Below, in pieces: positions 33,630-63,128 of a stretch of 64,000 bases of DNA (position 1 is its first letter; each line of letters begins with the position of its first letter). A program made the position numbers and the translations under genes. The notes beneath the pieces are model-generated. The model was not told where the DNA came from, did no database searches, and saw only the letters and a list, made by a program, of their open reading frames with translations. The DNA is taken from contig CM065881.1 in NCBI GenBank assembly GCA_033439255.1, positions 2,976,001 through 3,040,000 on the forward strand, given 5' to 3'. Origin of the DNA: Hericium rajendrae. Its lineage: Eukaryota; Basidiomycota; Agaricomycetes; Russulales; Hericiaceae.

Positions 33630-34460
33630 TATAAAAAGGTGACATATGCCTAAATTGTAGCCATGTGGCATGTGAGTGACAGACAAGTGGTTTGACCAGC
33701 ATAGCTATACAGATGCACTTGCAAATTGCAAAATAGTCGACCAAATGCTTTGTGCAAAACAAAGATTTGTGAATATCTCAGCCAATACTTATCCGATTGA
33801 TATGAATGTAGCACTGTTGGAAAGGTCTTGAAAAGCTGCATTTAGCCTGATACTTCATCAAGCTCAGTAGCAAAACAAGAAAATAAAATGACCAATATAC
33901 TGATTTGTATTACTACATAACATAGTATGAGTGTTGCAAGCTCAAACAGTCATTCAATCTGTAAACAGACATTATATTCACATTTGGCTTGAAAAATAGT
34001 GCTAAAATGAATATATTCAATTGTCAAACCAAAAATTTCCATATATAGTAGATTATATAAACATATAAACATTATATTTAGATTCAGCTTCAAAAATGGA
34101 GCTCAAACATATATATATCATATAGTTACCAAATTTGGAAATTATACATGCTTACATAACCTATCAGCCATCAGATTTGAAATCAGCACAAAAAACGGAG
34201 CAAAATGATATATATATCATATAATTGCCAAACTGAGAAATTACCCCTGATTACATAAGCTTATGGGTACTATATTTGGATTCTTCTTTCAAATACGATC
34301 ACAGCCATATATAATACATCCCCATTGGATCATCCCGTCAGCCACAATCTTATCCGAGATTAATGGGTTTTTAACCCATGAAAGGTTTTTAACCTAGCTG
34401 GAAAAGTTGCCGGGTGGTTTGTAACCCCAACTCCGACAAGGTCCGGCAGGGTTTTTAAAC
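33630..34460 (-). repeat. Right arm of the inverted repeat
   Basis: It is the complement of the left arm. The mirrored open frame lies at 33650-33841. Mismatches between arms are sparse, for example one base in TATATCATATAG against the other arm. Confidence 0.85.
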
Positions 34461-34762
34461 AAGCTACATGGACGCCTCCCGTGTGGGTCCCCAGCGTCTT
34501 AGAATCACTATATATGGTAGATCGTACGATGACACTGATCCGGGTTGATATATATTGCCTAGAAATAATACAGAAGCATGCGCTTTTCATTCATGGGGGT
34601 GAGTCAGAGGTCTGGTGATCAAGATTGCATGGTAATGGGGCATGGGAAGCATAAGGACATATAGACATAAGATGCGGTGAGAGAAAAGGGGAGGTGGATG
34701 TCTACGCGCAGAGGATAGGTTAAAGATAAGTCTTCGTAGACTAATGGATAGACGCACCTCGT
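34461..34762. other. Short intergenic stretch, no gene seen
   Basis: The stretch lies between the inverted repeat and the stop codon of the next gene. It has normal GC content and no coding frame of note. Confidence 0.45.
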
Positions 34763-44070: not shown

Positions 44071-47000
44071 ATGTCTTCGTCCCTACCCTCTAAACGTAAG
44101 AGACTCTGCAGATGTCGGTCCTACTGCTTGCAATACAACACCGAGACACATGCGTACGAAGGAGAAGGCAATGTCATTTCGCGCTCACTTCAGAACCAGC
44201 ACAAGCGGGACGATGAACTTGCAGACGTCATGAGCTCCTACGAGGCAAAAGTCATGGAACAGGTATCTATCACTTTATGTGGCCATTTACAGCTTCTCAC
44301 TGTTGTGCAAGGTTTTATTAGGGTCGACTGCACAACCTTCAGCAACAACTTCACCTACTCCACCAGCCGAGGACATCCATGCGGTAGATCCCGTCGCTGC
44401 GCATTTACATATGTTCGAAAGGGAGGTCGCTATGCGATCAACCTGGATCACAGCCCCTCAGTCACTCGAGTTTGTCCATAATCCTATGCAACATGGCTCA
44501 TTCGAACGGCCCGATGTACTCGATTTGCGCATCCCGAACTCAGGACGGCACGCACTAAAAGCCAATGCTCGCGTCAATCGATCTCTTTTACAGAACGAAT
44601 GCAGACTTTGCGAAATTTTGGATATCATAGGAGACACGGCCGACCACCCTCGTCGCGAACAACTGGAAGATCGGATTTATCGTGAGCTGTCGACCATTAA
44701 CATGCACAAAGAGGTCGAATGGGCTCATCAAAGGGGTGCATCTGAAGGGCGCATCTCCCTTAATACAGGTGCGTAATCTACTTGTTGTTTTTTAGGAGTT
44801 ATTTTAATATTTTGTTAGAGATCTATTTCGCGCCAGTGGGGCTGAAAGATCCTACCCTGATCGCTATCTTCATCACCGTCCTCACCATCCATGTGCTTTT
44901 TCAGCTTCCTCGCCGTGCAACCCAGATTCTTCTAGCTGGCATGCGTTCTATCCTACGTCTCACTGCTCCTACTGAAGCAGACTCTGTCCCGAAGGATCCC
45001 CGAACCGTGCTGGGGCGGTATCGTCTCGATCCGATCACGGAAACTTATATCTGCTGTCCCGCATGCTATTGTCTCTACCAATACCTTCCCGGATCTGACG
45101 TAATCCCAGAGAAATGTACCCATCGTCCACTACCGACTTCCAAGCCATGCGGTGTACCGTTGTGGAGAACTGTCCAGATCGGCGCAGATCAGCGCCGCAT
45201 ACCTCGACAGAAATATGTTTGCCACCCGATGAAGCACTGGCTAGGACGTCTTCTCTCCAGGCCGGGGATTGAAGATGTACTGGATCAACCCAAGCGCAAT
45301 CCAGGCAGGCCGATGCAGGATATCTGGGATGGTGCCGCATTCAAAGGTGCTCTGGGCCCAGATCAGCGCCCATTCTTTCCAGGGCCACGTGGGGAAGGGA
45401 GGCTTATTTTCAGCCTAGCTATGGACAGCTTCAACCCGTTCCATATGAAAGAAGCAAAACAGACAGTATCTTCAACCGGTATATGGATGGTTCTGTATAA
45501 TCTGCCTCCGCACTTGCGCTACCTACCGGAGAACATGTATCTGGTCAGTGTAATCCCGGGTCCCAGCAAACCTTCGCTGGATCAAATCAACCATTCTCTC
45601 GAGCTTATTGTCCAAGAGCTCTTGGAGTTCTGGGATCCTGGAGTCTCATTTACGCGCACTGCCCGCTCCGCGATTGGTCGATTGATCAGGTGCATTGTGA
45701 TCCCGCTGGTATCAGACATGCTTGCGGTTCGGCAAGCTGCTGGGTACGGGTCTGCGACGTCTCGCTGGTTCTGTACGTGTTGCCGGCTAGAGATCAAGGA
45801 TATTGAGAACCTTGAAAAGGATACCTGGCCATCGTGCGATTTTCGTACAGATCGGCACTTCGCCAAACAATGGAGGGACGCTAAGACCCAGAAGGCGCGA
45901 GAAGACATCTTCAAGGATCACGGCGTGCGATGGTCGCCCCTGTATAAACTACCATACTGGAACCCTGTGTGCTTCATCACGGTCGACTCTATGCACGCTC
46001 TCGACCTGGGACTGTTCCAAACACATTGCCGGCAAGTATGGGGCATTAATGTCAATGTTGAAGGCAGCGAAGGAATCACCGTTCGCGGAAAGATCCCTGC
46101 CAGACCACCACATGACCATCTGGTGGCTTGTCTTAAGCTTATAAAGGACAATCCTGTCGGTCTTCTCGATATCCTCATCGGAAGGCGCTTCACAAAGGCG
46201 ACACTCTGGCATGTCTCTCACGACAATGATCTGCGCTATGCTGGCAATAAAGCACAACTCGCGGGTCGTATTATCGAATGGGTAGGCTTTTTATGTATAT
46301 ATAGCTCTATGTGTTGATTGATTTCGATCTGTAGAGGAATCATATTGAGGAAAATGACATCGTCATCCCGGATGCGCCCGTGACGGCCCCTGACATGGAC
46401 ATCTCGATATCTCAGGAATCAGCAAGCAGCACGTCCTCAAGCTATCGTGCAGATCTTTCCGTCGCTGCGCGCAGCGAGAATGAGCAAGCCGATGTCAAAA
46501 GAGGAACCCGGATGTTGGCCAGGCGTCAAGATAAAGAAGTAGTGGTGAAGGCTTTGAAGCAGTTCGTGCTGCGTTGTCTTTGCTATGACCATGGACTGCC
46601 CATCTCCGGAAAGAAGGGTGTTCTTTACGATCGCCTTAGTGCCTGGGTAAGCACGATATATCCAGTCCTCTTAATTTGGCTTATTGTTTCCGACAGATCG
46701 AAGAGAACGAGATCCCACTTCCTTCACCACAAGCGAGTGAGGACAAATTTGAGGGCGAAGAGGCCGATGAGGCCGGTGAAGTTCCGGATGAAGAACAGGG
46801 TGAGCACGTCCTGGGCAAGCGAATCATGGACGCTGTGCACCAGGACATGGAGCACACCATCGTGCCGTCTTGGATCAGCAAAGCACCAGCCAATTGGGGT
46901 ACGTCGAAGCGCGGCAAGCTTAGCGCCAACCACTGGCGGGTCATATGCACCATCCACCTACCGATAACACTGATCCGACTTTGGGGGGCCGAGTCCTCTG

Positions 47001-47786
47001 AACGGGAACAAAAAATGCTCGCTAATTTTATGGACCTCGACCGGGCAGTACAAATTGCCAACATGCGGGCCATTTCACCTAACCATATCGCATCTTATCG
47101 CATGTACATGCACCGGTACCTCTCTGACTTCAAGGATCTGTACAAGGGCAGTACCATCAAGCCGATACATCATATATCACTTCACATCGACGACGTTTTG
47201 GAGAACTTCGGGCCAGTTCATGCTCATAGTGCTCCGTTTTTCGAGCGATACATCTACTTCTTGCAGGGACAAAATATCAACATGAAATTTGGTGCGTTAG
47301 TATGCGCGAATGGCGACCATAATTACTAATTGTTCTTTACAGGTGAACTCGAGTCGACATTCATGACAAGTTCTGCTCGTGCAGCAAATCTTCGTGCTCT
47401 TCTTCTCCACGATTCGGCAGTTCGCAAGAATGTGAACGAGCTGATTCAGACGTACACGATGGTTTCATCCAAGGACGTTAGAGGGACACGTCTTGCAAGC
47501 ATGCTCGACACATCTCTCGTAGCGCCGCTATACGACGCGGGGTCTTTCAGCAAGCCAACGTCCCAAATCAACGACCAGACCACGAGCCTTCTGCTCGATT
47601 TTCTTGATGACAAACACATCACCAAGGCGTATTCACAACTTCGCATCCCAGTATCAAGAAACACTTATCATACCACCCGCCTTTCTATCCGTGGCGTGCG
47701 ATATGCAACTGCTTCCTCGCTCCATCGCGACAGCAATATCCTATTCCATCGAATAGGTAGCCATAGCTACGGTAAAACCGTCTCGC
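44071..47786 (+). pseudogene. CACTA (EnSpm, Tnp2-like) transposase, part before the gypsy insertion
   Basis: Exons 44071-44262, 44312-44768, 44819-46281, 46335-46646, 46697-47291 and 47343-47786 join in frame; with the right part the product would be 1266 residues. Exon 1 begins with a Cys-rich start (KRKRLCRCRSYC). Exon 3 holds the Tnp2-type core: CCPACYCLY with a later CTHRP, the acidic-residue motif IFSLAMDSFNPFH, ATSRWFCTCC and ITVDSMHALDLGLFQTH. Exon 4 has a SAP-like DNA-binding segment (LKQFVLRC..HGLPISGKKGVLYDRL). Later exons carry HWRVICTIHLPITLIRLWG and HISLHIDDVLENFGPVHA. The frame is open to 47786, where the LTR begins. Confidence 0.85.
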
Positions 47787-48245
47787 TGTCACACGGAAAA
47801 GCGGTTTCCGACCTAGGGGTGTCTGGGTTTTCTGGTAACTTTTCCGAGAACTCCTAGTTGTTCGATGAGGGATGGATTTGTCTTCTACTTCCGGTGTGAA
47901 TCCGACTTGCCAAGGATTATGGCTGTGGGAGACGGAGGTCGAGGGTATGCGATGCGATGAAGAAGTTCGTAGAACACTGTCACTCGATGGACAATGATCA
48001 AAAGTACGATGACTCGTAGGACGTGAATATTGATGATTGGACTGGACGTGCGTATACGTGGAATGATAACTGCTTGGATTCGTATCTTCGTGGATTGGAC
48101 GTCAACGTGAATTCGTAGAATAACGTGGATTGAAAGCGCTTGTGAAGCAACTTGACCAGGATTTGATTGTAGAAAAGAACCTTAGAGGATTCTGACGTAC
48201 AAACTGGGGGCAAGGATACTTGAATTTGGTGTTACAGGAGCAGCC

Positions 48246-48253
48246 TTTATATA
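48246..48253 (-). promoter_or_regulatory. Downstream LTR TATA box, 3' LTR copy
   Basis: TATATAAA on the minus strand, downstream of the LTR frame. Its counterpart in the 5' LTR would drive the genomic transcript. Confidence 0.6.
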
Positions 48254-48314
48254 CCCTAAGAGCTCCTATGGCTGCGCGGGTATGAAATGTATCAAAAAGG
48301 ATAGATGAAACGAG

Positions 48315-48450
48315 TGAGTCATTCCTAGTCATGTATAGTAAGGGTGAGTCGAAGTAGGTGACTAGGAGATGAGTCGGTCAGGATAGTGAGTCAGGAAGAG
48401 TCAAACGAAGGTAAGAGTCATAATGAGTCAACGCTCAGATGTATGAGTCA
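48315..48450 (-). promoter_or_regulatory. Cluster of TGAGTCA sites in the 3' LTR
   Basis: Four exact TGAGTCA (48315, 48387, 48424, 48444), two TGAGTCG (48345, 48370) and further GAGTCA words lie 60-200 bp upstream of the downstream TATA. TGAGTCA is the consensus for Gcn4/AP-1 bZIP factors. Confidence 0.6.
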
Positions 48451-48554
48451 GAGACCAAACAAATCAAAAGGAAAATGAGAGAACATAGGTGATGTAGCAT
48501 CACGACGAAGACAGAGTGCAGGAAACATACGACAAAGAACATGACCAGTCCCTT

Positions 48555-49826
48555 TTAGGCGTAAGGGTCTCCTATGGTCGGATGAAACTCGGCCCGAGGA
48601 GGCTCGTTCCGAACCCACTCCTTTACATCGACATCCATCCTCGCAGTTCCAGCCTCGATGGCGATCTTCTTGATCTGACAGGCCTTGCGCATGTGATCAA
48701 AGACTGCAGGCTCGCAGTGGCCACTGTAGGATGTCGCATATGTGGAGGCCTCGTATACGCAGTGGAAAAGATCCAGTGGATCGTAAGGCTTGAGCCGATC
48801 CTTTGCCTCTGCCCCATCTCTGGTAAGCCTCTGCCTCTCTCTTCCTTCTCCGATGCACCAATGACGTGGCACGACCATGATGATGCACCCAGATCCATAA
48901 GTGGAATCGGGATCAGGGCTGGCCGGCTCCTCCCCCCAATCAGGCCCGAGATCGTCCACAACCTTCATACGTCTTACTCTCCAAACGGCCCAGGTATCCG
49001 TCACCGAGAGGAGTTCCTTGATAGCGCCATAGGCGCAGGATCCTTTGATGTCCGAGATCAACAAGATGAACTGGCCTTTGCGAATGGGCATCGTCGGCTT
49101 AACGACTGAGATCCAGGGGAAGTGCAGGTTTCCGGTGATGAGCCGGACGGTCATGAAGTTAAAAGGGAGATCGACAGAGGAGGGGGCCCAGACATAGCCG
49201 GTGCACTGATGGAACTGTCGAGCATAGATGTGGCCGAAGGGCCCTTCGGGAATAACGGTGATGATACCGGGGGCACGGAATGTCGGGTCGGTACTGATCT
49301 CAGGAAGTGTTGGCGTAGGCGGGGGTGGAGCTAATGCGAGAGCGCTCGGAGCAGCCGGAATGGAAGGAGGGAATTGGGCAGCAGAGAGCGTGGCAGGGAA
49401 TGCAGCGGCCATGATGTTGGGGATGTCGTCATTCTCGTGCCTTTCTACCTCCAGTCGGAGGTCCCCTACATCCGTATCAGTCAACGTTACAAAGGAACGG
49501 TCATCGAAGATGAGTTCGGTTTCGATCTCCTGCTCCTGATGACGTGCAGCGATGGATATCCGGTCGGCGACGTCCTGCATACCTTCAAGAATTCGTCGAG
49601 GGTCAGGCGGCTCTGGCCCGTCGAGAACCGTTAGACGGTATCTGGGGTTGGCAGTGATGAGATTCCCTCCGAGGTAAAAATTGAGTCTCTCGGTAGTGAC
49701 GCTTCGCAGGGAATCATGATGGACTGCTAGGAAGAGAGGAGGGAGATTCTCAGTGGGAGCAGGCCGGCAAGGTTCTGGAGCAGGATTAAGAAGAGAATCG
49801 AACCAGGCCATGATGCGTTGGAGCAT
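48555..49826 (-). CDS. LTR-encoded protein of unknown function, intact copy
   Basis: A 423-codon frame lies wholly inside the 3' LTR, in the gag-pol orientation; the first ATG is at 49826 (MLQRIMAWFDSLL). The N-terminal half is acidic with a Pro-rich linker (LAPPPPTPTLPEI). The C-terminal half looks folded: RQFHQCTGYVWAPSSVDLPF, LITGNLHFPWISVV, KGQFILLISDIKGSCAYGAI, VTDTWAVWRVRRMKVV, then a His/Cys-containing end (VYEASTYATSYSGHCEPAVF). There is no signal peptide or clear membrane helix and I recognise no family. A TATAAAA lies about 115 bp upstream, so the frame could have its own transcript. LTR-internal genes are rare. Confidence 0.75.
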   Translation of the reverse strand: MLQRIMAWFDSLLNPAPEPCRPAPTENLPPLFLAVHHDSLRSVTTERLNFYLGGNLITANPRYRLTVLDGPEPPDPRRILEGMQDVADRISIAARHQEQEIETELIFDDRSFVTLTDTDVGDLRLEVERHENDDIPNIMAAAFPATLSAAQFPPSIPAAPSALALAPPPPTPTLPEISTDPTFRAPGIITVIPEGPFGHIYARQFHQCTGYVWAPSSVDLPFNFMTVRLITGNLHFPWISVVKPTMPIRKGQFILLISDIKGSCAYGAIKELLSVTDTWAVWRVRRMKVVDDLGPDWGEEPASPDPDSTYGSGCIIMVVPRHWCIGEGRERQRLTRDGAEAKDRLKPYDPLDLFHCVYEASTYATSYSGHCEPAVFDHMRKACQIKKIAIEAGTARMDVDVKEWVRNEPPRAEFHPTIGDPYA

Positions 49827-49938
49827 GAGGGGCGGAGTCAAGAGGGAGCGTGAATGAGGCTTTAGGGAGAGTGCAGCGTGTTTGTGGGATGGTTTTGATG
49901 CAGGTTGGCAAATTCTTACATGACGTTGCTTCTTCTCA

Positions 49939-49945
49939 TTTTATA
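49939..49945 (-). promoter_or_regulatory. Upstream LTR TATA box (before the LTR frame), 3' LTR
   Basis: TATAAAA on the minus strand, about 70 bp inside the LTR edge and about 115 bp before the ATG of the LTR frame. The equivalent site in the 5' LTR (62659-62665) reads TCTAAAA. Confidence 0.5.
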
Positions 49946-50055
49946 AGCGAAATGAGTGATGCGCCGCTCTTTTCTTCATGTTAGCGCTCGAAACATGTTG
50001 TGAGCGTGACATCCGCGGGGAACTTGAATGGCAACTGTCCCCAGTTGCGACCATC

Positions 50056-50385
50056 CTAATCGTCATGAGAAGATCCATCTTCGGAAGAAGATTCCTCAGA
50101 ATCCGAACTTTCAGCCTCCACAAGTTTTCGACCTATCTTGGGAAGCTCTGATCCTGATCGAGCGATGTAAGGTAGGAGCCTAAAGGCTGCACTTGCATAT
50201 TTAAGGTATGCTCCACTTGGTTCTCGTAGCACATATGAACCTCCCTTTGTCCTTCTTTCCACGACATATGGACCAAGATAGCGAGGCTTTGCCTTTCGAT
50301 CAGCACTAAGCTCTATGCCTGTGTTGCGCATCAGGACTAGGTCTCCGGGCTGATAGTATTCTGTTATCATTTTTCGTGCAAATCG
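50056..50385 (-). pseudogene. Integrase C-terminal domain, separated by an in-frame TGA
   Basis: The frame follows directly after the TGA of pol without a shift. It encodes the usual integrase end: YYQPGDLVLMRNTGIELS, KPRYLGPYVVERRTKGGSYV and a final acidic Ser-rich tail (ESSDSEESSSEDGSS). In a working element this would be part of pol. Confidence 0.8.
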
Positions 50386-53300
50386 TCATTCAAACTTCTC
50401 TTTTGACCCCAATCTATGCTGCTTGAGGGTCAAAGCTGCTTTGGCTACATCTGATGGCCGCTTCTCCAATTGGCGAATTCGAAGTGCTAGAAGATCGGCT
50501 TCCTCCATTCCTGATTTAAATCCTTCGACAAGGAATGTGGCTTCGGTGAGGTCGAATGGAAGTACCAGATGACATCCATGAAGGAGGTAGTAGGGGGAAA
50601 ATCCTGTTGATTGACTAACGGTAATTCGGTCAGCAAAGAATGCCTGTGCGACTTTTTGAGGCCATTTATGAATCTTTCCTTCACAGGATTTGATAATGGC
50701 TTCTCGGATAATAAAGTGCCCGCGTTCTACAACTCCATTTGCTCGAGAATTATAAGGGGAGATGGTAACGTGCGGTGTTCCCATTTCTTCTGTCAGCTTG
50801 CGAAATGCGCCCAGGAACTCCTTTCCGTTGTCTGTGACCACCTGGCCAATTGCTCCGTATCGGCAGTATATTTCTTCCCAGAGGAAGTTGGCAAGATTCT
50901 TGGATCTTTTGTTGCGAAGGGCTCGCCCTTCCGAGGCTCGGGAAAGGTCGTCTCGTGCTGCCACTATGTATTGAAACCCATTGTCTCCTCCTACCTGTGG
51001 TAAGTCCATTAGGTCAAGGTACACCTTCACCCATAAGTTTGAGGGTGTCGAGATCGTGGGTGGAATGACCTTTCTCTTTAGACTTCGAATTTGGCACTCG
51101 TGACAAGAACGCACATGATGTCGTACATCGTGCCTCATATGTGGCCAATAGAATCGGAGTCGAAGTGTCTCGAACACAGATTGCTCCCCTCGATGTCCAA
51201 GTCCTTCATGTGCTTCAGTAAGCAACTTTGTACGCTCATCGTGACCAAAGATCACTTTGAAGGGGTGTTCATTTCCATTCCTTCGATACATGGAATCTCC
51301 TCTGACGAAAAACCGAGCTACCTTTTGTAGAAAGCGTCGATCATCCTGTACAGTCTTGACTTTGGCAGGATACTGAAGAGTCTTCAGAAATCTGAAAATA
51401 TCCTGCAGCTCCTGGTCAAGTCGAATGGTAGCTGAAAACATGAATGACGGCAATTTCCTAACCGAATAGTGATGTGGAACAGATGGGGATGTTTTAGAGA
51501 TCGTGGCATAGAGCGCAATGTTGTCCAGCCATGAATCATCATCCTCCTCTTCGCATTCCCCTTCAGCGGGTTCTCGACATGACAAAGCATCTGGCCCTTT
51601 AAATTTATCTGCCGGTACATGGACAAGGGTGAAGTCGAACATGAGAATTCCTTGGATCCATCGATTGATAGCGGCATTCGGCTGAAGGTCTGGGGCATTT
51701 AACATTCCCTTGATGTACTTGGCATCAACCTCGACGTAAAGATCTGTGGCACCGATAAGATGTATGCTGTAATGTTTGAGGGCTCGGTACAACCCGAATA
51801 ATTCCAGCTTTGGCTGAGAGTAACGAGACTCTACTTCGCTCATGGGCAATGATCCATACCGAGCAGGTCTTCGTTGGCCTTCTTCATCTAACTGGGAGAG
51901 AATGAATCTGACGGCATGCTTACTTGAGTCAACTGATAATATGATAGGCTTGTCCGATGAGTAGTCGATAGCTCGTAAAGCAGGTGCCGTTGTGACAAGC
52001 TTCTTCAGCTGATCAAAGGCTTTTTGCCGCCGTTCATCCCAAATAAACTCAGCTTCCTTTCGAGTAAGTTCAGTGAGTGGTCGGATGATCTGGGAGTATC
52101 CAGGAATCCAGATGCGGACTGTGCCACATAGACCTAAAAATCCTCGCACGTCTTTTGGGGTCTTTAGTGGAGGCCAATTGAGAATTTTGGAAACCTTTTT
52201 ATCTTCTGGTATGCGTCCATCCTGTGTGCACGTCTGCCCCAGAATATCCACACTCGGGCGGCAAATCTGAACTTTGTTGGGTGCGAACGTCGCTCCGGCA
52301 TGTTTGATGCGGTGCATAATCCGATGAACATCCTGCGCATGTTCCCAGATGAATCGCCGAATTCCTGGATTTTCCGACAACACCTCTGGTTCTCCCTTTT
52401 CATTGAGGTACTGAGTCTTTGGCCCTCTAACTGCCAAGTCATCAATGAAGATGTTGGCATGTTCAGGGATTTCAGGCTGCAGGATGAACACCATGCAATT
52501 CTGAAATTCAGCTGGGGAGTTGGTAAAGCCCATGGGCATTGATGTGATGCGGAGAAGTCCAAGCGGCGTCAGAAATGCAGTGAGATCACGGCTTTCGGGA
52601 TGAACTTTTCGTGCATCGAATCCCCAGAAGAGATCAAAGACGGTGTTACATGCCCGCCCTGCAAAAGGTTCAACAAAGTTATCCAAGATAGGTGGGACTC
52701 CTGAATCTCGGATGGTCACCTTGTTGAGTGGCTGAAGATCATGTACAATACGGAGCTTGCCATTTTTCTTCAATACACAAAACCAGCGGGAACGATAAGC
52801 TGATTGAGATGGCTCATATACTCCGGCTGCAATTTTTTCTTTGATCAGTGTGATGACCTTGTCCTTTATTCCAGGTGGGATCGGTATGTTTCGGTACTCC
52901 CAGGGACTATGAGGTACAGTGGGAATAATGTATGGCATAAAATAGGATTCTTTGAGGGTCCCGCGCTGAGTCTCTTCAAAGGCAAGGGCCTCCTCATTTA
53001 GCACCATGATGTGCGTGAAGAGTTTTTCCTCTTCTGGCCATAGGAACCCCTTCGTATTGATTTTTAGGATGTTACGACGTTCTTCGGTGATACGTGCCGT
53101 CGGCTGGAAGTCAGGCGGTAGCTTTGGTAAATGTGGCAGGGTCAGAAGTGGATCTTCAGGAATTCGTCGATGGACTCGTGCAGACTCCGGGAATGTCCCA
53201 GGCACTGGTTTAACCTTCTTGTCAACGCATTTGTACATGGTGAAGGATTGTGCATGATTTTCGACCAAATTCAGAAGCACCGAAGTTATTCCACCTGTTG

Positions 53301-53823
53301 CGCAAGTAGGATTATTATTGCCATGGAGCGAGGTCGATGCAAAGAGGCATGTTGCTGCAGGACGTGAATCAAATGATGCGCAATACGTGTCATTGGGGAT
53401 CCCAGATATCCGATGGCAAGGGGCGCTACACAAAGAAATAAAACAAAGGTCTGAGGCCCGAGAGTCCAAGGTTAACACAAGGGGTTTCATAGTAGGAGAA
53501 GAAGAGGCATAGGGAAGGGGAAGAGGCACCAACAGGTTATCATACAGAGGATCTGAGGAATGAAGACTGAAAGGAAGATGTTTTTGGATTTTTAAGTATA
53601 GATTATAGTGATGTTTTTGGGTTTTATGGATTATTCGAAAAGCAAGGGGCAAACGTAGACGTACAAATTCAGACAGGTCCGAGATAGCAATTGACGCCAG
53701 CAGATGCGAAAAGTCATAGCGATAGGTGAGGATAGGGGAAAGTGGCAAGACAGGCCTGACCGCGGGGAACTTAAATATTGAGTCCGGCTCGAAGAGATTT
53801 CGGGCACGCACCTTAGTCGTCAT
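50386..53823 (-). CDS. pol: Pol: reverse transcriptase, RNase H, integrase
   Basis: The frame is open from 53955; the ATG at 53823 overlaps the upstream stop and is the likelier start. RT: SRWFCVLKKNGKLRIVHDLQ, LLRITSMPMGFTNSPAEFQN and the catalytic FIDDL (near 52440). RNase H: ILSVDSSKHAVRFILSQL, LELFGLYRALKHYS, LYVEVDAKYIKG. Integrase: HHCC finger HEGLGHRGEQS..CHECQ, catalytic D in KVYLDLMDL, D in QVVTDNGKEF, E in GVVERGHF. All key residues are present. The frame ends at TGA 50386-50388, but the same frame continues with RFARKMITEYYQPGDLVLMR, so the integrase C-terminal domain is cut off by that codon. Confidence 0.92.
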   Translation of the reverse strand: MTTKVRARNLFEPDSIFKFPAVRPVLPLSPILTYRYDFSHLLASIAISDLSEFVRLRLPLAFRIIHKTQKHHYNLYLKIQKHLPFSLHSSDPLYDNLLVPLPLPYASSSPTMKPLVLTLDSRASDLCFISLCSAPCHRISGIPNDTYCASFDSRPAATCLFASTSLHGNNNPTCATGGITSVLLNLVENHAQSFTMYKCVDKKVKPVPGTFPESARVHRRIPEDPLLTLPHLPKLPPDFQPTARITEERRNILKINTKGFLWPEEEKLFTHIMVLNEEALAFEETQRGTLKESYFMPYIIPTVPHSPWEYRNIPIPPGIKDKVITLIKEKIAAGVYEPSQSAYRSRWFCVLKKNGKLRIVHDLQPLNKVTIRDSGVPPILDNFVEPFAGRACNTVFDLFWGFDARKVHPESRDLTAFLTPLGLLRITSMPMGFTNSPAEFQNCMVFILQPEIPEHANIFIDDLAVRGPKTQYLNEKGEPEVLSENPGIRRFIWEHAQDVHRIMHRIKHAGATFAPNKVQICRPSVDILGQTCTQDGRIPEDKKVSKILNWPPLKTPKDVRGFLGLCGTVRIWIPGYSQIIRPLTELTRKEAEFIWDERRQKAFDQLKKLVTTAPALRAIDYSSDKPIILSVDSSKHAVRFILSQLDEEGQRRPARYGSLPMSEVESRYSQPKLELFGLYRALKHYSIHLIGATDLYVEVDAKYIKGMLNAPDLQPNAAINRWIQGILMFDFTLVHVPADKFKGPDALSCREPAEGECEEEDDDSWLDNIALYATISKTSPSVPHHYSVRKLPSFMFSATIRLDQELQDIFRFLKTLQYPAKVKTVQDDRRFLQKVARFFVRGDSMYRRNGNEHPFKVIFGHDERTKLLTEAHEGLGHRGEQSVFETLRLRFYWPHMRHDVRHHVRSCHECQIRSLKRKVIPPTISTPSNLWVKVYLDLMDLPQVGGDNGFQYIVAARDDLSRASEGRALRNKRSKNLANFLWEEIYCRYGAIGQVVTDNGKEFLGAFRKLTEEMGTPHVTISPYNSRANGVVERGHFIIREAIIKSCEGKIHKWPQKVAQAFFADRITVSQSTGFSPYYLLHGCHLVLPFDLTEATFLVEGFKSGMEEADLLALRIRQLEKRPSDVAKAALTLKQHRLGSKEKFE

Positions 53824-56800
53824 TTGCTTCAAGGATAGTACGCTCGTCGATGAGGTATTCCTTGACGATGTCATACCATTCCTTGAATTCACAATCGTAA
53901 AGCTTGGCAAGCATGGGGAGTTGAAGTCCGTCGACCAGTCCGCTTTCGATGACATTGCGAATAAGTGTATCGTCAGCGAAGTGAATCGATACGAGTTGCT
54001 CGAGTGCGTTGGCGTACTCGAGACGCCTCTGGGATCGAAAAAAGTCTACGGTGATGAGTAGGAACCGAGCCTCAGAGTCGCGAAAGAGTGGGCTTAGCGG
54101 CGCATCCGGGGATCCCGCGTACTCCCGTATGAACTTGAGGGCTGGATGGTTGAGAGCATCTTGAAGCTCGGGGTTTCCTCGGTCGAAGTGTCGACGGATC
54201 AGCGTGATGTTGTCGCGTACACAAAGGATGACCATCCTGCAAAGTCCGCGCCAATAGTAGTAAGTCCCGAGTGCCGAAGGATGGAATGGAGAGTCAGCGA
54301 GCGCGATGAGGTCGGGTACGAGAAAGCGGTTGCGAAGCTCGCCGGTGATGAAAGTTGTGGGCTTCAATCCCATGAAGGAGTGGGGGTAGGTGAGCGAATC
54401 TGCGCGCGCTGACCCGTCGGCTTGAGCACGAAATCCTGGGAGTGAGATCTGAGGGTTGACGGGATAGACGTGGTCGCCGTCGAACCTGCTGGGGGTGTCG
54501 TCGGTTTGCTGATCGAGGGCTTCCGTTAGTTCGACAGCGCGTTCCTCGTCGGAATCGTCCTGCGCGTCGATCTCCATGGCCGTCCTGTATTCGCGGCTCG
54601 AGGCAATGGACATAGTGGACTGCGTTTCGGATATGCCGGCGTCCGATCCGACGTGAGTCGCGATGTAGGCCTCGATTCGGGAGCGTGTGTCGGGAGAAGG
54701 TGGGGTGACAGGTATGACTACCTGGGGCAGAGAGTCGTCGCTCGCAGAGGACTCGGACGTGGTGTCAGAATCGGCGGTCGTGCGTCAAATCTCGTCGAGG
54801 ATGGTAGGGGTGAGGAGAGCCAGCATTGACTCGACTTTGTAGGTGGTGTCGGGCGGGGGAATAGCGATACTGGCGTCGCGGTATAGCTCAGTAATCTTTT
54901 CGAGCGTACCTTCGCGAAGATGCCCTAGACCGAATACTAATGCGTCGATCTCGTCGCTCGCGATGGACTCGAGAGACGGGCAGGACGATCCTGCGGAATC
55001 GGACCCACTGAGCCGTCCTCCCTTTTCCACCAAATCCTCTCCCTCAGCTCCAGCGCCTTCAACGTCCTCCTCTTGATCTTGCGCAGCTTGTGCCCAGGTG
55101 AGCGTGTGAGCGAGCTTTCCAGTCGGGGGTGGAACTTGCGTGCAGGTGCCGTCGAGCGAAGGGGATCCCGCCGGAGGAAGGCCGAAAGAAAAATTCGCTG
55201 ATGCGGGGTAATGATCGAGTGCGGCATAGGCTTCGGGAGTTCTGAGGGGTTCGGGAGGGTAAGTGAGACCTCTCGTGGGGCTGGAGTTAAGAGAGGGTGC
55301 AGGATCCGTCTCGGGAGGGGTGCTGGTGCTGACGACGCCCGATCTCTCACGAAAGGGCCGAAGGTCTTGAAAGGACCACTCGTGTCCGCGGTCTGGAGCT
55401 TCGTCGTCATCGTCCGATTCGAGCTCCCGCGTCCTTTCGGTGATGAGCTCGTCCAGGTAATACCGCATTATGCCGTGGCCGATGTAATGGGCACAATTCC
55501 CCACTCCAGGTAAGTGGACTCGGAGCTCGCTGTTGACGAGCGCCATGTCGATGTAGGGAAGGCCTGCGCGTCCTTCTGTGCCCATCCCTGCAACGATACC
55601 TTTGTCGGTGACTACGGTCGTGCCGTGGAGATCTCCCACGTCACAAATTTCAGTAAATCGTGCTTTCGCACGCTGGAGGACGCCAAGGAGCTCGTGGTAG
55701 TCCGCTCCATTCACGTCTGATTCTAGGGTAAGTCCTCGAACGTTCTCTGACGCGACAGAGGGGAGAATACCTCGAAGCGGGCTGCTCATGATGGGGCATA
55801 CGTGTAATTCGCTGCCCATCACGTATAGGGAGGATGGAGTTTCGAGGAGTAAGAGTGATGGTTGGCGCGGGAGCGATGAGGATGCTGGAACCTGAGGTGA
55901 GTACGTTTTTCTGTTTGATCGCGCCTTTATATACTGAACGTCGTCTTCTAATTCCTTGCTCGTGCTTGAGGAGACCTCGAGCTTGTCAGCTCGGATTATC
56001 ACGTTTTCTCGGTTCTTCCCAGCCCCGGAGGTGTAACCCTCCTTACTACGCCCTTGCGGCCTGCCCACAATCCCCGCGACACAGCCTATTTCGCCCGTCG
56101 TACCACCAAAACGACGGATCTCCCTGTCCGCGGTGAGTATCCCGCGGCGTTCTTTCCTGCGTCCTGAGAGACTAACTTCGCCGTTTCTGTCTCGCGAGCA
56201 GGTTTTTCCATGAGTGGCGCACTGTGCTGACTCAATTCCGACATTGCGCAGCATGCTCATATTCCCCGAAACATGCTTTCCTTTCACTGGGCTTTCGACC
56301 CTCTGCAAGGGCTCCTTGGTAACGCAGGTTCGAGACCCGGGCGGGCTATCTGCGACTTTCCCCATTTCGGCGGACACGTTGTTCGCAAAGGTGAGTCCCT
56401 GCTTCTCCCATTCTTCGAAGTCTGACCTTCTGATGTTTCCCCAATCTCGCGCATGGCTCGCATCGCTAGCGCTATAACGTGCCAAGTTATTCGCGTCAGC
56501 GAGCCTGTCAGGCTCTTTTCCCAAGTTATATTCTGCCCGTGGTTCTCCTTCGCCATTTGGCGAGTGGATTCCGTCCTCGCAGGATCGCGCCATAGTCCTG
56601 CGATCATCGCTCTTTTGTTCTGGATGGGCGGCGCTTTCCTTATCACTCGAGGGCCGTGTTTTCCCCCCTAAGTCGTCGTAACACGTTTCTATTACCGTTT
56701 TCTGAGTGAACGCATTTCCGCGTTCATCGGTGGCATGGCGCGTCCCCTCGCTCCCCTTAGTATCTTCGATCTCTTTATCCTTCGAGGTGCGTTCGTCCCG

Positions 56801-57454
56801 CGTCTTGCTCTCACTATTCGACACATTAATTCCTTGATTTTCGAGCTGTAGCCTCACGACTTCACCGATCGCCAGAGGTGCTCGATGCTTCAAGCTGTCA
56901 AGTGCACTTTCACGGACAGGGGCACCGATTTTGGATATTCCAAGGTACGCTCTTCCATGGTTTTTCGTCCTGCCGACTTCGCCTCTGACTCGATCCACCG
57001 CATGCGCCGAGTCTTTGCCGGGATCAGGCAAATCAGCAGCAACTCTGTTTCTCGTGTCTGAGACGGTACCATCACTTTCAGTGACCATGACCTCTGCATT
57101 CAGAGCTTCGTCTTCATCGTTCCAAAGTCGAGTTTGAGTTGTTTCACCGACAACGGGGTACGTTGATCCCCCGATGCTCGCAAAGTAGGTCCTAACGTCT
57201 GTGTTTTCTCGAGGGTCACTTGCCTCCACCAAAAATGGTCCAAAGTGCGCTGTTTCTTCTTCGACTAGCACTTCCCATAGGGCTCGGTCGGGCTGCTCGG
57301 GATCTTTCTGTACGAGGTAAGTCCCGTCTTCTCGTTCATCAATCGAGACTAAATTTCCTCTTTGCCATGGCCTTCCCAGCAGCATCTCGAATGGTACCTG
57401 TTCCCCAATATACAAGTCCGCTTTAGTTGTTACTTCGCCGAAAGACAGGGGCAC
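53813..57454 (-). CDS. Protease C-terminus plus long region of unknown function
   Basis: This frame continues the protease (LVRKVPLSFGEVTTKADLYI; VPFEMLLGRPWQRGNLVSID) and then runs about 1100 codons before pol. A TGA at 54785-54787 splits it, with the same frame open on both sides (54788-57454 and 53813-54784). After a hydrophilic, probably disordered stretch it has a block with GVGNCAHYIGHGIMRYYL, an acidic Pro-rich linker, and a helical C-terminal block (HPSALGTYYYWRGLCRMVIL; SEARFLLITVDFFRSQRRL; VSIHFADDTLIRNVI). I recognise none of these beyond the protease. The stop overlaps the likely pol start (ATGACGACTAA). Position suggests an element-specific structural or accessory protein. Confidence 0.7.
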
Positions 57455-57462
57455 TTTTCGGA

Positions 57463-60438
57463 CTAAGCCAATGAGTTGACCCGTTCCCCGTTTGCGTCGT
57501 GCATCTCTATCTTCTGGTTCAAGTCAATGGGTAAACGGACCTTTTTTCTCCAAGCTTCAAGACTTAGAATATTGAGCTGAGAGCCAGTGTCGATGATGCC
57601 TGTTATGTCCTTTTCCCGATATTGAAATTGTACCTTAATCAAAGGTCCTCGGGGTGGCCGAAAAAGCAAATGTACACCAGCTCCTTCTCCCATTATTGTA
57701 GTATTCATTGTTTGATTTCGCTTTTTCATGCTTTCGGACAAGACAGATTGGATTTCCGATGAGGATCCTAACAAGTCACCAATGGAGAGCTGAATGGGCG
57801 TACGCAGCATTTGTTTAACTACTTGTGATGGATCCACCGATATAGCGGATTTGCGAGGTGCAGGCTTTCTCCTCTCATTTTCTCCTTTTGCACTAGCTGA
57901 TGGCTTGACCCGTTTCAACTGTGCAGTGGCTGGAGTTACATCTTCCATGATCTGGTCATCGTCTCCAGGATCAAACAGCCAATCCTGAGTATCGATGGGC
58001 TGCTGTCCGGACGGATTACTAGGGCTCGGCTCGACGCGTGGGATGAGCGGCTTTCCTTTCATTTCTCTCCTCTTCTTGTCCAATGGGTCTTCTTCATCAG
58101 AGTCCGAATCCACATTGGTTGCTCGCCAGTCCATCGGCACATCCTCACGTTCTGTGCGTGGCTCTGGTGCCTTTCCCTTTTCCTCATTCCTTGAACTTCG
58201 CGTAATAGGGCCATTTCTTGGATGTCCTACTCGTTCGCCTGGAATTCGTGGGGCCTGAGAAGTACGAGGCACATTCTTGGGTGTAGGCATACTTCCCGTA
58301 GCCTTCCCAGAGGGTTTTACTGTTGCAGGTCTCTTTGGAGGATATACTCCATCAAAGGTGGTTCGCCGAGCTTGTGAAGTGCTCTTTGGGGATCGTTCCA
58401 CGGGATAGGCCAAATAGTCTTCCTCATCGGTATCTCCTGCCATCAAAAACACTCCTCCATCTTCATCATCAGATTCTCGCTCATACTCGATCACCTGAAT
58501 CAGGTTTGTTCGTGCGATCGGTGTGCTTTGCGCAGGTGCTTGTTGTTCAGCCCGCTCTCGCGCTGCTGCTGCGATGATTGTTTCATCTTGGAATCGTCTA
58601 ATAAAGGCTCCGTTCCCATGGGTGATCCTTCTCTGAGCATCACGGGCTAATGTTCCTTGGCTGATTAATTCTTCCAACCTTCTGCAGTTATTCAGTCCAT
58701 GTCCTTGGTCTCCGCATCCATAGCAAGTCATCTCATTTCTGCGGTTGGGTGGGAATGTGGTGCTCCCAGATCCTCCTGAATTATTGTTTCCCATGTGTGG
58801 AGGTGGGTCTCTTGGCCACGAGGTTCTTGGAGGTGGAGTGGGTAACCGTCTGGGCTCAGCATTCAGAGTTGCCCCCTGGCCCTTTACTGCTGGAGGTGGC
58901 ATAATTTCAGTTATGATCTTGTCCAACCGTAAGGCCCTGTAATAAACCATTGCATACTGAGGGTCATTGATGCTGAGCTGACTGAGTTGCTGGATCAGGT
59001 CTTCCATGGTGTCTTGATTATTTGGGGCTTGTCGGGGTGGAGGCGGCGTGTTCAACCGTGGAGCTTTGTATTCCACTTCTTCATCATCTGCATATCTGAC
59101 TCTCTTCTTTTTAGGAGTCATCTTCTTGCGATTGTGCCTTGCTTTCTTGCCACGCCGGCGCTCATTGAGGCGGTTATCTTCATCTGATGAGTCTTCATCT
59201 TCTGAGTCGTCGCTCCCACTCCAGTCTGTGGGGTCCTCATCACTACTTTCATCAAGGATGTCATCAAAACGATTTCGGGTCAACATGGTTTCCGCGATAA
59301 CTTCGACTGCCTGCATGTCATAGGGTTGGGAACGGTTGTGATTTGGATGAGAAGACAGATATCGTGCCTCTATTATTTTGCGAAACTCCCGTCCGATCCC
59401 TCGCCAAAAGAATGCTGCATGCTCTGCTTGCGTGATTTTGTTTTTCTGGAGGAGCCATCCTGCAATCTTGACGAATCCCCGGGTGTACTTCTTCCAAGAG
59501 GCTAGGTTCCCCATCCTCTTACGTTTAGTTTGGCTGATGTACTTTGCTAGGTCCCTCTTCTTAAATCGCTGGTCGTATAGGTCTGCGTCATAATATTTGA
59601 GCAGATCAGACTTGAGATTGTTCCAATTGTTCGCTCGATAACTCTCCAGTCCCTCGATGAACTCGGTGACTTCTCGTGAACAGTACTGAGTGATAGATAC
59701 ACATTTTTCAGCATCTAGGACAACATTGTTCTGATTGCACAGCCGCTCGAAGTGGTCTACGAACTTCTCCACATAATTGTACTCTCCCTTGAATTTGATC
59801 GGGGCATTCTTCGTTCCTGGAAGGGGGAGAGTCAAGATTGACGGTACTGGGGCTACTGCTTGGGGTTGCATTCCCTGGCCAACCTGAGCTTGAGCACCTT
59901 GCCCAGCTTGTGGCTGGACTCCTTGTCCTGCTGGAGCTACAGGTGCACCTCCTATATTTGGATTCACTGCTGGACCGATACCCTGTCCTGCTGGGATATT
60001 CACGTTCATTGTGGCTAGGATTGGTGGTGTAGGCGGAGGTGATGGCGGTAGTGGAGTAACTAGGGATAAATCGGGTGGATTCTGGATTGGAGGTGTGGGC
60101 GGAGGTGATGGCGGTAATGGAGTAACTAGGGATAAATCAGGTGGATTCTGGACTGGACTAGGATGAGAAGCAGGGCTCCCGACTGGCGAGATTGATGCTC
60201 CTGCAGTTGGTGGAGAGTTTGAAAGGGTACTCAGAGGTACCGAACTCGGTGATGATCCTGACGATGGAAGGGTACTGATTCCTGCTTCACTTGAGCCGGA
60301 CGTTAGGTTTAGAGAGCTTGGAGAACTGATGAGATCTGATGCGAGTGTTGTCGGAGTCGATCTTCTGGACGGGACTTCGGTATCAGAAGATCCAGATGGT
60401 GATGGGGCACGGTATAAGCTGAACGATGTTGAAGCCAT
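57463..60438 (-). CDS. gag: Gag with zinc knuckle and start of the protease
   Basis: A 991-codon frame. The N-terminus is Ser/Pro-rich and contains an exact tandem duplication of a block with DLSLVTPLPPSPPPTPP, then GQG repeats. The capsid-like part runs about residues 200-400 (IKFKGEYNYVEKFVDHFERL; WNNLKSDLLKYYDADLYD; QAEHAAFFWRGIGREFRKII). Acidic and basic tracts precede a CCHC knuckle CYGCGDQGHGLNNC near residue 570. A retropepsin begins near residue 940 with the active-site DTGSQLNILS. The frame ends inside the protease (HDANGERVNSLA, stop). Its continuation QLIGLVRKVPLSFGEV is in the -1 frame. Confidence 0.88.
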   Translation of the reverse strand: MASTSFSLYRAPSPSGSSDTEVPSRRSTPTTLASDLISSPSSLNLTSGSSEAGISTLPSSGSSPSSVPLSTLSNSPPTAGASISPVGSPASHPSPVQNPPDLSLVTPLPPSPPPTPPIQNPPDLSLVTPLPPSPPPTPPILATMNVNIPAGQGIGPAVNPNIGGAPVAPAGQGVQPQAGQGAQAQVGQGMQPQAVAPVPSILTLPLPGTKNAPIKFKGEYNYVEKFVDHFERLCNQNNVVLDAEKCVSITQYCSREVTEFIEGLESYRANNWNNLKSDLLKYYDADLYDQRFKKRDLAKYISQTKRKRMGNLASWKKYTRGFVKIAGWLLQKNKITQAEHAAFFWRGIGREFRKIIEARYLSSHPNHNRSQPYDMQAVEVIAETMLTRNRFDDILDESSDEDPTDWSGSDDSEDEDSSDEDNRLNERRRGKKARHNRKKMTPKKKRVRYADDEEVEYKAPRLNTPPPPRQAPNNQDTMEDLIQQLSQLSINDPQYAMVYYRALRLDKIITEIMPPPAVKGQGATLNAEPRRLPTPPPRTSWPRDPPPHMGNNNSGGSGSTTFPPNRRNEMTCYGCGDQGHGLNNCRRLEELISQGTLARDAQRRITHGNGAFIRRFQDETIIAAAARERAEQQAPAQSTPIARTNLIQVIEYERESDDEDGGVFLMAGDTDEEDYLAYPVERSPKSTSQARRTTFDGVYPPKRPATVKPSGKATGSMPTPKNVPRTSQAPRIPGERVGHPRNGPITRSSRNEEKGKAPEPRTEREDVPMDWRATNVDSDSDEEDPLDKKRREMKGKPLIPRVEPSPSNPSGQQPIDTQDWLFDPGDDDQIMEDVTPATAQLKRVKPSASAKGENERRKPAPRKSAISVDPSQVVKQMLRTPIQLSIGDLLGSSSEIQSVLSESMKKRNQTMNTTIMGEGAGVHLLFRPPRGPLIKVQFQYREKDITGIIDTGSQLNILSLEAWRKKVRLPIDLNQKIEMHDANGERVNSLA

Positions 60439-60489
60439 GTTCCTGGCTTTTGGATTGTTTACCAGTCAGAAGAACAAACCGAAACCCCT

Positions 60490-60503
60490 CGCGGTGGGCT
60501 CCA
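60490..60503 (-). other. Primer-binding site
   Basis: Four bases after the 5' LTR, the minus strand reads TGGAGCCCACCGCG. This is complementary to a tRNA 3' end GGTGGGC-T-CCA. A U discriminator base is typical of tRNA-Cys, but the donor tRNA is an inference. Confidence 0.55.
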
Positions 60504-60966
60504 ATGATGTCGCGCGGAAAAGCGGTTTCCGACCTAGGGGTGTCTGGGTTTTCTGGTAACTTTTCCGAGAACTCCTAGTTGTTCGATGAGGGATGGATTT
60601 GTCTTCTACTTCCGGTGTGAATCTGACTTGCCAAGGATTATGGCTGTGGGAGACGGAGGTCGAGGGTATGCGATGCGATGAAGAAGTTCGTAGAACACTG
60701 TCACTCGATGGACAATGATCAAAAGTACGATGACTCGTAGGACGTGAATATTGATGATTGGACTGGACGTGCGTATACGTGGAATGATAACTGCTTGGAT
60801 TCGTATCTTCGTGGATTGGACGTCAACGTGAATTCGTAGAATAACGTGGATTGAAAGCGCTTGTGAAGCAACTTGACCAGGATTTGATTGTAGAAAAGAA
60901 CCTTAGAGGATTCTGACGTACAAACTGGGGGCAAGGATACTTGAATTTGGTGTTACAGGAGCAGCC

Positions 60967-60974
60967 TTTATATA
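60967..60974 (-). promoter_or_regulatory. Downstream LTR TATA box, 5' LTR copy
   Basis: TATATAAA, the likely core promoter of the full-length gag-pol RNA. It lies about 460 bp before the LTR end. Confidence 0.6.
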
Positions 60975-61035
60975 CCCTAAGAGCTCCTATGGCTGCGCGG
61001 GTATGAAATGTATCAAAAAGGATAGATGAAACGAG

Positions 61036-61171
61036 TGAGTCATTCCTAGTCATGTATAGTAAGGGTGAGTCGAAGTAGGTGACTAGGAGATGAGTCGGTC
61101 AGGATAGTGAGTCAGGAAGAGTCAAACGAAGGTAAGAGTCATAATGAGTCAACGCTCAGATGTATGAGTCA
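61036..61171 (-). promoter_or_regulatory. Cluster of TGAGTCA sites in the 5' LTR
   Basis: The same array as in the 3' LTR, offset by 12,721 bp, unchanged as far as I can see. This copy is positioned to control the genomic RNA. Confidence 0.6.
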
Positions 61172-61275
61172 GAGACCAAACAAATCAAAAGGAAAATGAG
61201 AGAACATAGGTGATGTAGCATCACGACGAAGACAGAGTGCAGGAAACATACGACAAAGAACATGACCAGTCCCTT

Positions 61276-62546
61276 TTAGGCGTAAGGGTCTCCTATGGTC
61301 GGATGAAACTCGGCCCGAGGAGGCTCGTTCCGAACCCACTCCTTTACATCGACATCCATCCTCGCAGTTCCAGCCTCGATGGCGATCTTCTTGATCTGAC
61401 AGGCCTTGCGCATGTGATCAAAGACTGCAGGCTCGCAGTGGCCACTGTAGGATGTCGCATATGTGGAGGCCTCGTATACGCAGTGGAAAAGATCCAGTGG
61501 ATCGTAAGGCTTGAGCCGATCCTTTGCCTCTGCCCCATCTCTGGTAAGCCTCTGCCTCTCTCTTCCTTCTCCGATGCACCAATGACGTGGCACGACCATG
61601 ATGATGCACCCAGATCCATAAGTGGAATCGGGATCAGGGCTGGCCGGCTCCTCCCCCAATCAGGCCCGAGATCGTCCACAACCTTCATACGTCTTACTCT
61701 CCAAACGGCCCAGGTATCCGTCACCGAGAGGAGTTCCTTGATAGCGCCATAGGCGCAGGATCCTTTGATGTCCGAGATCAACAAGATGAACTGGCCTTTG
61801 CGAATGGGCATCGTCGGCTTAACGACTGAGATCCAGGGGAAGTGCAGGTTTCCGGTGATGAGCCGGACGGTCATGAAGTTAAAAGGGAGATCGACAGAGG
61901 AGGGGGCCCAGACATAGCCGGTGCACTGATGGAACTGTCGAGCATAGATGTGGCCGAAGGGCCCTTCGGGAATAACGGTGATGATACCGGGGGCACGGAA
62001 TGTCGGGTCGGTACTGATCTCAGGAAGTGTTGGCGTAGGCGGGGGTGGAGCTAATGCGGGAGCGCTCGGAGCAGCCGGAATGGAAGGAGGGAATTGGGCA
62101 GCAGAGAGCGTGGCAGGGAATGCAGCAGCCATGATGTTGGGGATGTCGTCATTCTCGTGCCTTTCTACCTCCAGTCGGAGGTCCCCTACATCCGTATCAG
62201 TCAACGTTACAAAGGAACGGTCATCAAAGATGAGTTCGGTTTCGATCTCCTGCTCCTGACGACGTGCAGCGATGGATATCCGGTCGGCGACGTCCTGCAT
62301 ACCTTCAAGAATTCGTCGAGGGTCAGGCGGCTCTGGCCCGTCGAGAACCGTTAGATGGTATCTGGGGTTGGCAGTGATGAGATTCCCTCCGAGGTAAAAA
62401 TTGAGTCTCTCGGTAGTGACGCTTCGCAGGGAATCATGATGGACTGCTAGGAAGAGAGGAGGGAGATTCTCAGTGGGAGCAGGCCGGCGAGGTTCTGGAG
62501 CAGGATTAAGAAGAGAATCGAACCAGGCCATGATGCGTTGGAGCAT
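61276..62546 (-). pseudogene. LTR-encoded protein, frameshifted copy in the 5' LTR
   Basis: This is the same frame as in the 3' LTR, but one base is missing from a C run (near 61655). The reading shifts after VVDDLGPDWG and continues in another frame to a later stop; the true tail is left in a separate 127-codon frame ending at 61276. A few amino-acid differences elsewhere correspond to single transitions. The upstream TATA is also changed. Whether the deletion arose before or after insertion cannot be told from one element. Confidence 0.8.
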
Positions 62547-62731
62547 GAGGGGCGGAGTCAAGAGGGAGCGTGAATGAGGCTTTAGGGAGAGTGCAGCGTG
62601 TTTGTGGGATGGTTTTGATGCAGGTTGGCAAATTCTTACATGACGTTGCTTCTTCTCATTTTAGAAGCGAAATGAGTGATGCGCCGCTCTTTTCTTCATG
62701 TTAGCGCTCGAAACATGTTGCGAGCGTGACA

Positions 62732-63128
62732 TCGCGCCCTGGAGAAATCCGTGAAATTTTTTCCTTGTCATATCACACACCCATGGGCGAAGAAGTCAAA
62801 GGGACTTTTCTAACGGTTTGTGAGTTTGGGCTTGTCGAAGAGCAGCACCCTCTTCAGCAGGCATACAGAAGTTTCGGGTTTGCAGGCGGCTTTCTTTGCC
62901 GTCCAGTTGTGAAATCCAGGGTCATTGACATATCACAGATTGTCTGTCATATTGCACGAACACGGCTGAATATTGAGGGTGAAGAAATGCTCCATATTCT
63001 ACCACTTGATTGGGTACGTTGCGCTCGGATTTGAGTCACTCGCAGTCACTGACATCAAAGCACTTCAGCTCATGGAAATGCCTATTTACATGGATGATAA
63101 TGCAGACTATGTCAACGGTAGTGACTAA
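62732..63128 (+). pseudogene. CACTA transposase, C-terminal part after the gypsy insertion
   Basis: Exons 62732-63013 (its first four bases are the target duplication) and 63069-63128 complete the CACTA transposase. Across the insertion the frame rejoins as YGKTVSRPGEIREIFSLSY. The rest, TFLTVCEFGLVEEQHPLQQA and SRVIDISQIVCHIARTRL, matches the usual Tnp2-type tail. The end is DDNADYVNGSD then TAA. Total coding length without the insertion is 3801 nt, divisible by three. Confidence 0.8.

Follow-up and report, generated by a model that had tools for sequence, protein, structure and literature searches.

A selected protein gene inside the long terminal repeats of Ty3/gypsy retrotransposons in the fungus Hericium rajendrae

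Long terminal repeats (LTRs) are usually regarded as regulatory DNA, and the solo LTRs that elements leave behind as scars or promoters. A protein gene housed within an LTR is a layout that is, to our knowledge, known so far mainly from a few animal retroviruses. The sag gene of mouse mammary tumour virus (MMTV) lies in U3 and is present in both LTRs, and the lentiviral nef and foamy-virus bel genes are 3'-terminal accessory genes that extend partly into U3. The relevant passage on MMTV places sag in the 3' LTR, as a coding frame that follows the structural genes, and describes its product, in this vertebrate retrovirus, as a type 2 transmembrane glycoprotein (PMC3840357).

Additional frames have also been described in LTR retrotransposons. 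The Retrosat2, RIRE3 and RIRE8 gypsy elements of plants carry ORF0, an additional reading frame that precedes the gag-pol ORF, according to the passages that treat it (PMC3485330), the sections on bdelloid rotifer LTR elements report additional ORF3s with named activities (DEDDy, GDSL) (PMC5408684), and a figure legend on fungal gypsy elements marks an 'add. ORF', the position of which is not given in that legend (PMC2864245). The passages on extra ORFs and fungal elements in these three papers, and in PMC10787394 and PMC3411680, describe no frame inside an LTR, and a literature search returned no report of a gene inside fungal LTRs among the best-ranked matches in open-licence papers.

The LTR frame and its carrier element

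The window, by which we mean the whole stretch of 64,000 nucleotides of H. rajendrae DNA that was analysed, contains a Ty3/gypsy element at 47787-62731 with 2.2-kb LTRs at both ends; the element and all its features discussed below lie on the reverse strand. Self-BLAST delimited the 3' LTR (47787..50011, 2225 bp, TG..CA) and the 5' LTR (60508..62731, 2224 bp), whose ends were read off the sequence and which are 99.46% identical over the BLAST match. The paired LTRs have TG..CA termini, and comparison of the flanks revealed a short target-site duplication, TCGC, on both outer sides (47783..47786 on the left, 62732..62735 on the right). The pol frame (50386..53955) encodes reverse transcriptase, RNase H and integrase in the Ty3/gypsy order, with Pfam matches to RVT_1 (395-575), RT_RNaseH (668-768), Integrase_H2C2 (905-957) and rve (983-1070). 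The 991-codon gag-like frame (57463..60438) is named from its position and from a zinc-knuckle-like stretch spotted by eye; its sole Pfam match, to DUF4100, falls under the cut-off of that family. A putative primer-binding-site-like stretch follows the 5' LTR (60491..60507) and has similar counterparts in two of the further families introduced below (A2 and B), and a conserved block directly upstream of the 3' LTR (50012..50031), resembling blocks beside the 3' LTRs of families A2, C, D and E, would by its position be the polypurine tract.

The target duplications of the nine insertions tabulated are all centred on CG (TCGC, GCGC, GCGG, ACGC and GCGT, with one pair reading ACGT/ATGT) and a tenth insertion (L046/L042) is flanked by ACGC; against a background in which NCGN makes up 6.3% of the 4-mers of the window, a preference of these insertions for CpG targets is possible. 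Directly adjoining the element, at 44071-47857, are transposase-gene frames, the last of which runs into the LTR; one of them has a Transposase_21 (tnp2) domain and weakly matches Plavaka. The window also holds an inverted repeat of 842 bp (32581-33422 / 33630-34471; 98.6% identity, 0.2-kb spacer) with internal 0.2-kb repeats.

The frame of interest (48555..49826) starts with ATG, runs for 423 codons on the same strand as the gag-like and pol frames and occupies positions 186 to 1457 in LTR coordinates, within U3. Its counterpart in the 5' LTR (61276..62546) is 1 bp shorter and loses the frame late, giving 400 amino acids with a foreign end. A chance origin of so long an open frame is ruled out: shuffling the LTR 2000 times with dinucleotides preserved produced ATG frames of at most 276 codons on either strand, and never (0/2000) one of 423. 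A TATAAA lies 119 bp before the ATG (49940..49945), and TATATAAA (48246..48253), at about position 1759 in LTR coordinates, is likely to be the promoter of the genomic RNA; because the frame ends at 1457, it precedes that expected promoter. The original prediction had been of a 423-codon frame in the LTR of a gypsy element, in the gag-pol orientation, present in both LTRs with the 3' copy fully open, and placed in U3 between these same two TATA boxes, and the locus bears it out on each point, with the pol domains now identified, the 5' copy seen to be frameshifted and the start of the genomic RNA taken from the position of the second TATA.

The accompanying claim that the frame has its own upstream TATA box holds for the window's family and is not borne out in the other families. 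Within the family, the upstream TATAAA/TATAAG is kept in 19 of the 20 copies that reach it (it is altered in the 5' LTR of the window) and the second TATA in 19/20. In the other families, no TATAAA, TATATA or TATAAG is found upstream of the frame in the stretches examined (42 bp only for F_C5), and for this reason a dedicated TATA promoter is not general; one or other of these hexamers is present downstream of the frame in all other families but F_C3. By eye, families C, D and E have in common an ATATTA(A/G)A some 45 bp upstream of the ATG, and the start context is alike in C, D and F_C3 (gcaacc or gcaacg before the ATG). Expression of the frame may come from the LTR itself or by way of the element RNA.

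Copies, relatives and selection

Twenty-one LTR copies of the window's family were aligned, two from the window and 19 from elsewhere, with the remaining, mostly partial, copies left out. The frame is open across all 423 codons in 13 of them. Three of the other eight are frameshifted, three have a stop in an otherwise full frame, one is missing the LTR start (apart from that, it is open from residue 3 onwards) and one combines a truncation with a stop. Three solo LTRs with perfect 4-bp duplications all keep the frame open (L039, GCGC; L054, GCGG; L056, ACGC).

Several lines of evidence point to selection on the encoded protein. Pooled over 12 elements (one copy each; 66 non-independent pairs), pN/pS of the frame is 0.294; in the same set of LTRs the other sense frames give 1.16 and 0.87 and the antisense frames 0.99, 0.31 and 1.02. 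The antisense frame with the low value shares the gene's wobble positions and contains 17 stops in the window copy, which rules out antisense coding as what holds the frame open. Variable columns are distributed 38:31:76 over the three codon positions (chi-square p 5e-6), compared with 28:26:18 in the non-coding LTR downstream of the frame (chi-square p 0.31), and the same third-position excess is seen in CpG-free columns (8/339, 14/380 and 30/341 variable; p 3e-4). Across nine copies from the window's family, the final 146 codons of pol give a ratio of 0.09, and thus the LTR protein, though constrained, is less so than this part of pol.

For more diverged copies dN/dS was estimated in 14 pairs, with B_C1a/B_C1c left out and the window/A2 and D/E comparisons saturated in dS. 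The window frame and the C7 copy give 0.12 at dS 0.83, seven B-group pairs give 0.097-0.231 at dS 0.18-0.60, and the ninth diverged pair, D and C, gives 0.33 at dS 1.2 (the other eight lying at 0.10-0.23); for two B pairs that are very close, with 25 and 4 changes, the ratios rise to 0.65 and 0.90. Selection on the LTR protein is therefore stronger between the more diverged copies than between near copies. Had the original prediction been wrong, it expected related LTRs to have randomly broken frames and a dN/dS near 1; most near copies are instead open and the ratios are far below 1 (0.29 in the near copies), and solo LTRs retaining the frame, which it suggested looking for, do exist. That a real, selected protein gene lies inside these LTRs we regard as close to certain.

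The gene extends well beyond the window's family. The window protein, searched against the genome, had 61 matches, some of them only 27-43% identical; the places of the latter comprised five pairs spaced 11.6-12.0 kb apart and five that were unpaired, and searches with the proteins of those groups found further members. BLAST verified the LTR pairs of A2 (on C5, 99.8% identity, 2267 bp matched), B (on C2, 99.8%, and on C1, 100%), C (on C8, 99.8%), D (on C16, 99.7%) and E (on C4, 99.7%), with both LTR ends in view for A2, one for C, D, E and the B element on C1, and neither for the B element on C2. The LTR terminal sequence of these further families resembles that of the window. The LTR proteins of B-E are 267-303 codons long, and 13 members align over ~190 residues in the C-terminal part (residues about 221-407 of the window protein; 48606..49166, computed by hand from the residue numbers), which is marked by the cross-family motif PW..V.RP...G.....TW......PR.W...(F/Y)(D/N)P and in which P221, W238, P244, G251 and W279 (window numbering) are invariant. 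Identity over the aligned part is 45% between A and A2, 25-30% between A and B, 17-21% between A and C, D or E, and 45-56% among C, D and E. The protein family is common to at least six element families of this genome rather than an oddity of one. Among 25 near-full-length matches to the D protein, 19 are without a stop and six have one, a count that excludes frameshifted copies (recovered as split rows).

The A2 element (C5:3078300-3092900; L059, L060) has LTRs that are 99.8% identical and an in-frame TGA common to both frames; because both LTRs carry it, the break probably predates insertion. Since eight of the 21 near copies are broken or truncated and the A2 LTRs share a stop, not every mobile copy needs a frame of its own. 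There are also two single-copy intact frames of the same protein family, C5:355342-356178 (L066/L080, 279 codons) and C3:145389-146210 (L067/L081, 273 codons). A second copy of either was not found at the DNA level, nor were convincing LTR ends or a target duplication; the search for LTR ends around them gave chance-like candidates only, using a script that found the ends of L039 and missed those of A2 near the end of the stretch. These two frames would be either old solo LTRs or domesticated genes.

The distribution of the gene follows that of pol. With the window's pol as query, the first look yielded 483 candidates, of which 39 were scored; of the resulting 41 match rows, 39 were taken as pol copies and two, which continue another copy, were left out. 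LTR-frame matches were accepted within distance limits that we set ourselves (-200 to 6000 bp downstream of pol, 3000 to 16000 bp upstream). All 28 of the scored copies at 67-100% identity have a same-strand match in the expected place (downstream in 25, upstream in 25, both in 22), compared with none of the 11 copies at 43-47% identity under the same limits. As far as sequence search sees, the gene is thus the mark of a single clade; the search may have overlooked a fast-evolving homologue in the 43-47% lineage. In groups whose pol is 67-79% identical to that of the window the LTR protein is only 17-45% identical, and the LTR protein evidently diverges much faster than pol. The groups rank alike for the two proteins, which is consistent with joint descent. 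The genome also contains a high-copy gypsy lineage, exemplified by C13:973830-980860, with a pol 43% identical to that of the window and no detectable LTR frame of the present protein family; the 4 kb after the pol of this element gave at least 41 match rows (39 of 142 candidates scored). No recognisable LTR-frame homologue was found in the 4 kb after the pol of one 43% element, where LTR ends were not located.

Hericium belongs to the Russulales (Agaricomycetes), and a protein-database search with the D protein identified, among 688 candidates scored, two partial relatives annotated as hypothetical proteins in Hericium alpestre. Each has 175 amino acids: EWM64_g8963, which is marked partial, is 52% identical to the D protein and 84% to that of the E group, and EWM64_g8505 is 54% and 81% identical, respectively. 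Protein-database searches with the window protein and with the A2 alignment scored 7996 and 7994 candidates, respectively, and gave no relative with an E of 1 or less, nor was one found in viral contigs or prokaryote genome contigs.

What the protein may do

The members matched no family in Pfam, NCBIfam, PHROGs or PDB beyond scattered weak matches, in line with the original prediction, in which no domain was recognised; the weak Pfam, PHROG and PDB matches are confined to single members or have E > 0.01 and are not common to the members, so that none represents a known domain. No retroviral LTR protein family is present among the Pfam matches of the 13 members or among the PDB matches.

We favour an explanation in which a Ty3/gypsy clade would carry an accessory gene in U3, downstream of pol and upstream of the TATA of the genomic RNA. 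The gene would have originated as a third ORF, upstream of which the boundary of the 3' LTR came to lie, and reverse transcription would then have copied the ORF to both ends of the element. Transcribed from an upstream U3 promoter, a single LTR would be a complete gene; alternatively, the ORF would be expressed as the last cistron of the element RNA. The product would be a soluble protein acting in trans on element expression, most probably by antagonising host silencing, or else by activating or autoregulating the LTR. A regulator or silencing antagonist is suggested by the presumed solubility of the protein, its fast change under constraint and its presence throughout the clade, and trans action on silencing or on the LTR, as proposed, would account for rapid change under constraint. 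Two single-sequence AlphaFold models reached a pLDDT of 32 and 36, too low for a fold to speak for a regulatory role. The existence of the gene and the selection on it are observed and its activity is inferred; the prospects of the mechanism in full we judge to be evenly balanced. A bolder version, in which each LTR would be a self-contained gene, solo LTRs would stay working copies and so disperse genes for a trans-acting regulator or an antagonist of silencing able to outlast the element, and the frames at C5:355342 and C3:145389 would be domesticated descendants, we think doubtful.

Of the alternatives to an accessory regulator, the one that survives best is a third structural or envelope-like gene that occupies the position of env, happens to lie inside the LTR and is expressed from a spliced RNA, serving particle assembly or transfer. 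Its location is indeed that of an env- or nef-like gene, since the LTR-frame match starts 563-1573 bp past the end of the matched pol in 24 of 25 copies (3197 bp in the other), always on the same strand. Hydropathy, the only evidence used on this point, tells against it: the 13 members (several of them partial) have no hydrophobic span, with a highest 19-residue Kyte-Doolittle mean of 1.46, and accordingly neither an env-like ORF3 nor a type II, sag-like protein with a transmembrane segment is seen. Nor is there similarity to gag, pol or the middle frame, all hhalign probabilities being below 1%, a result that argues against a structural gene and against an origin from the gag-like, middle or pol frame. 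On balance a structural role is unlikely. Less likely again is that a gene of the host or of another element (a small enzyme or binding protein, for example) was captured and travels as a passenger with a function directed at the host, such as metabolism or persistence of the LTR: the two single-copy intact frames outside recognisable LTRs could be donor-like, but their nearest relatives are the C, D and E frames (29-38% identity), and no host family was matched in any of the four databases. Finally, it is highly improbable that the frame is open for a reason other than protein coding (base composition, or selection on an RNA or DNA structure in U3) and goes untranslated, for whilst the wobble-sharing antisense frame has an equally low ratio (0.311), its stops, the third-position excess and the conservation of amino acids between families only 17-56% identical, indicate a translated protein.

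Comparison with known systems

That a selected gene sits in the LTRs of an entire gypsy clade implies a gene overlooked by element annotation, a capacity of solo LTRs to go on encoding an element protein, and capture of accessory genes into U3 outside the retroviruses; the fast change under constraint suggests conflict with the host. Like ORF0 of plant gypsy elements, which also have long LTRs, the accessory gene proposed here is an additional frame that evolves fast and whose role is unclear, but ORF0 lies upstream of gag-pol and a location in the LTR is not described in the passages concerned with it (PMC3485330). With the ORF3s of rotifers and the 'add. ORF' of fungal elements it has in common, as far as the relevant sections and figure legend go, that it is a frame beyond gag-pol (PMC5408684, PMC2864245). 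It differs from nef and bel in that the whole of the frame lies inside the LTR and is found in solo LTRs as well. The closest likeness remains that to MMTV sag, as a complete sense frame in U3 upstream of the presumed genomic-RNA TATA; the original prediction held this parallel to be one of position only, and so it appears, for the fungal protein has the place of sag without its transmembrane span, shows no match to a retroviral LTR protein family in Pfam or PDB and is carried by a fungal gypsy element.
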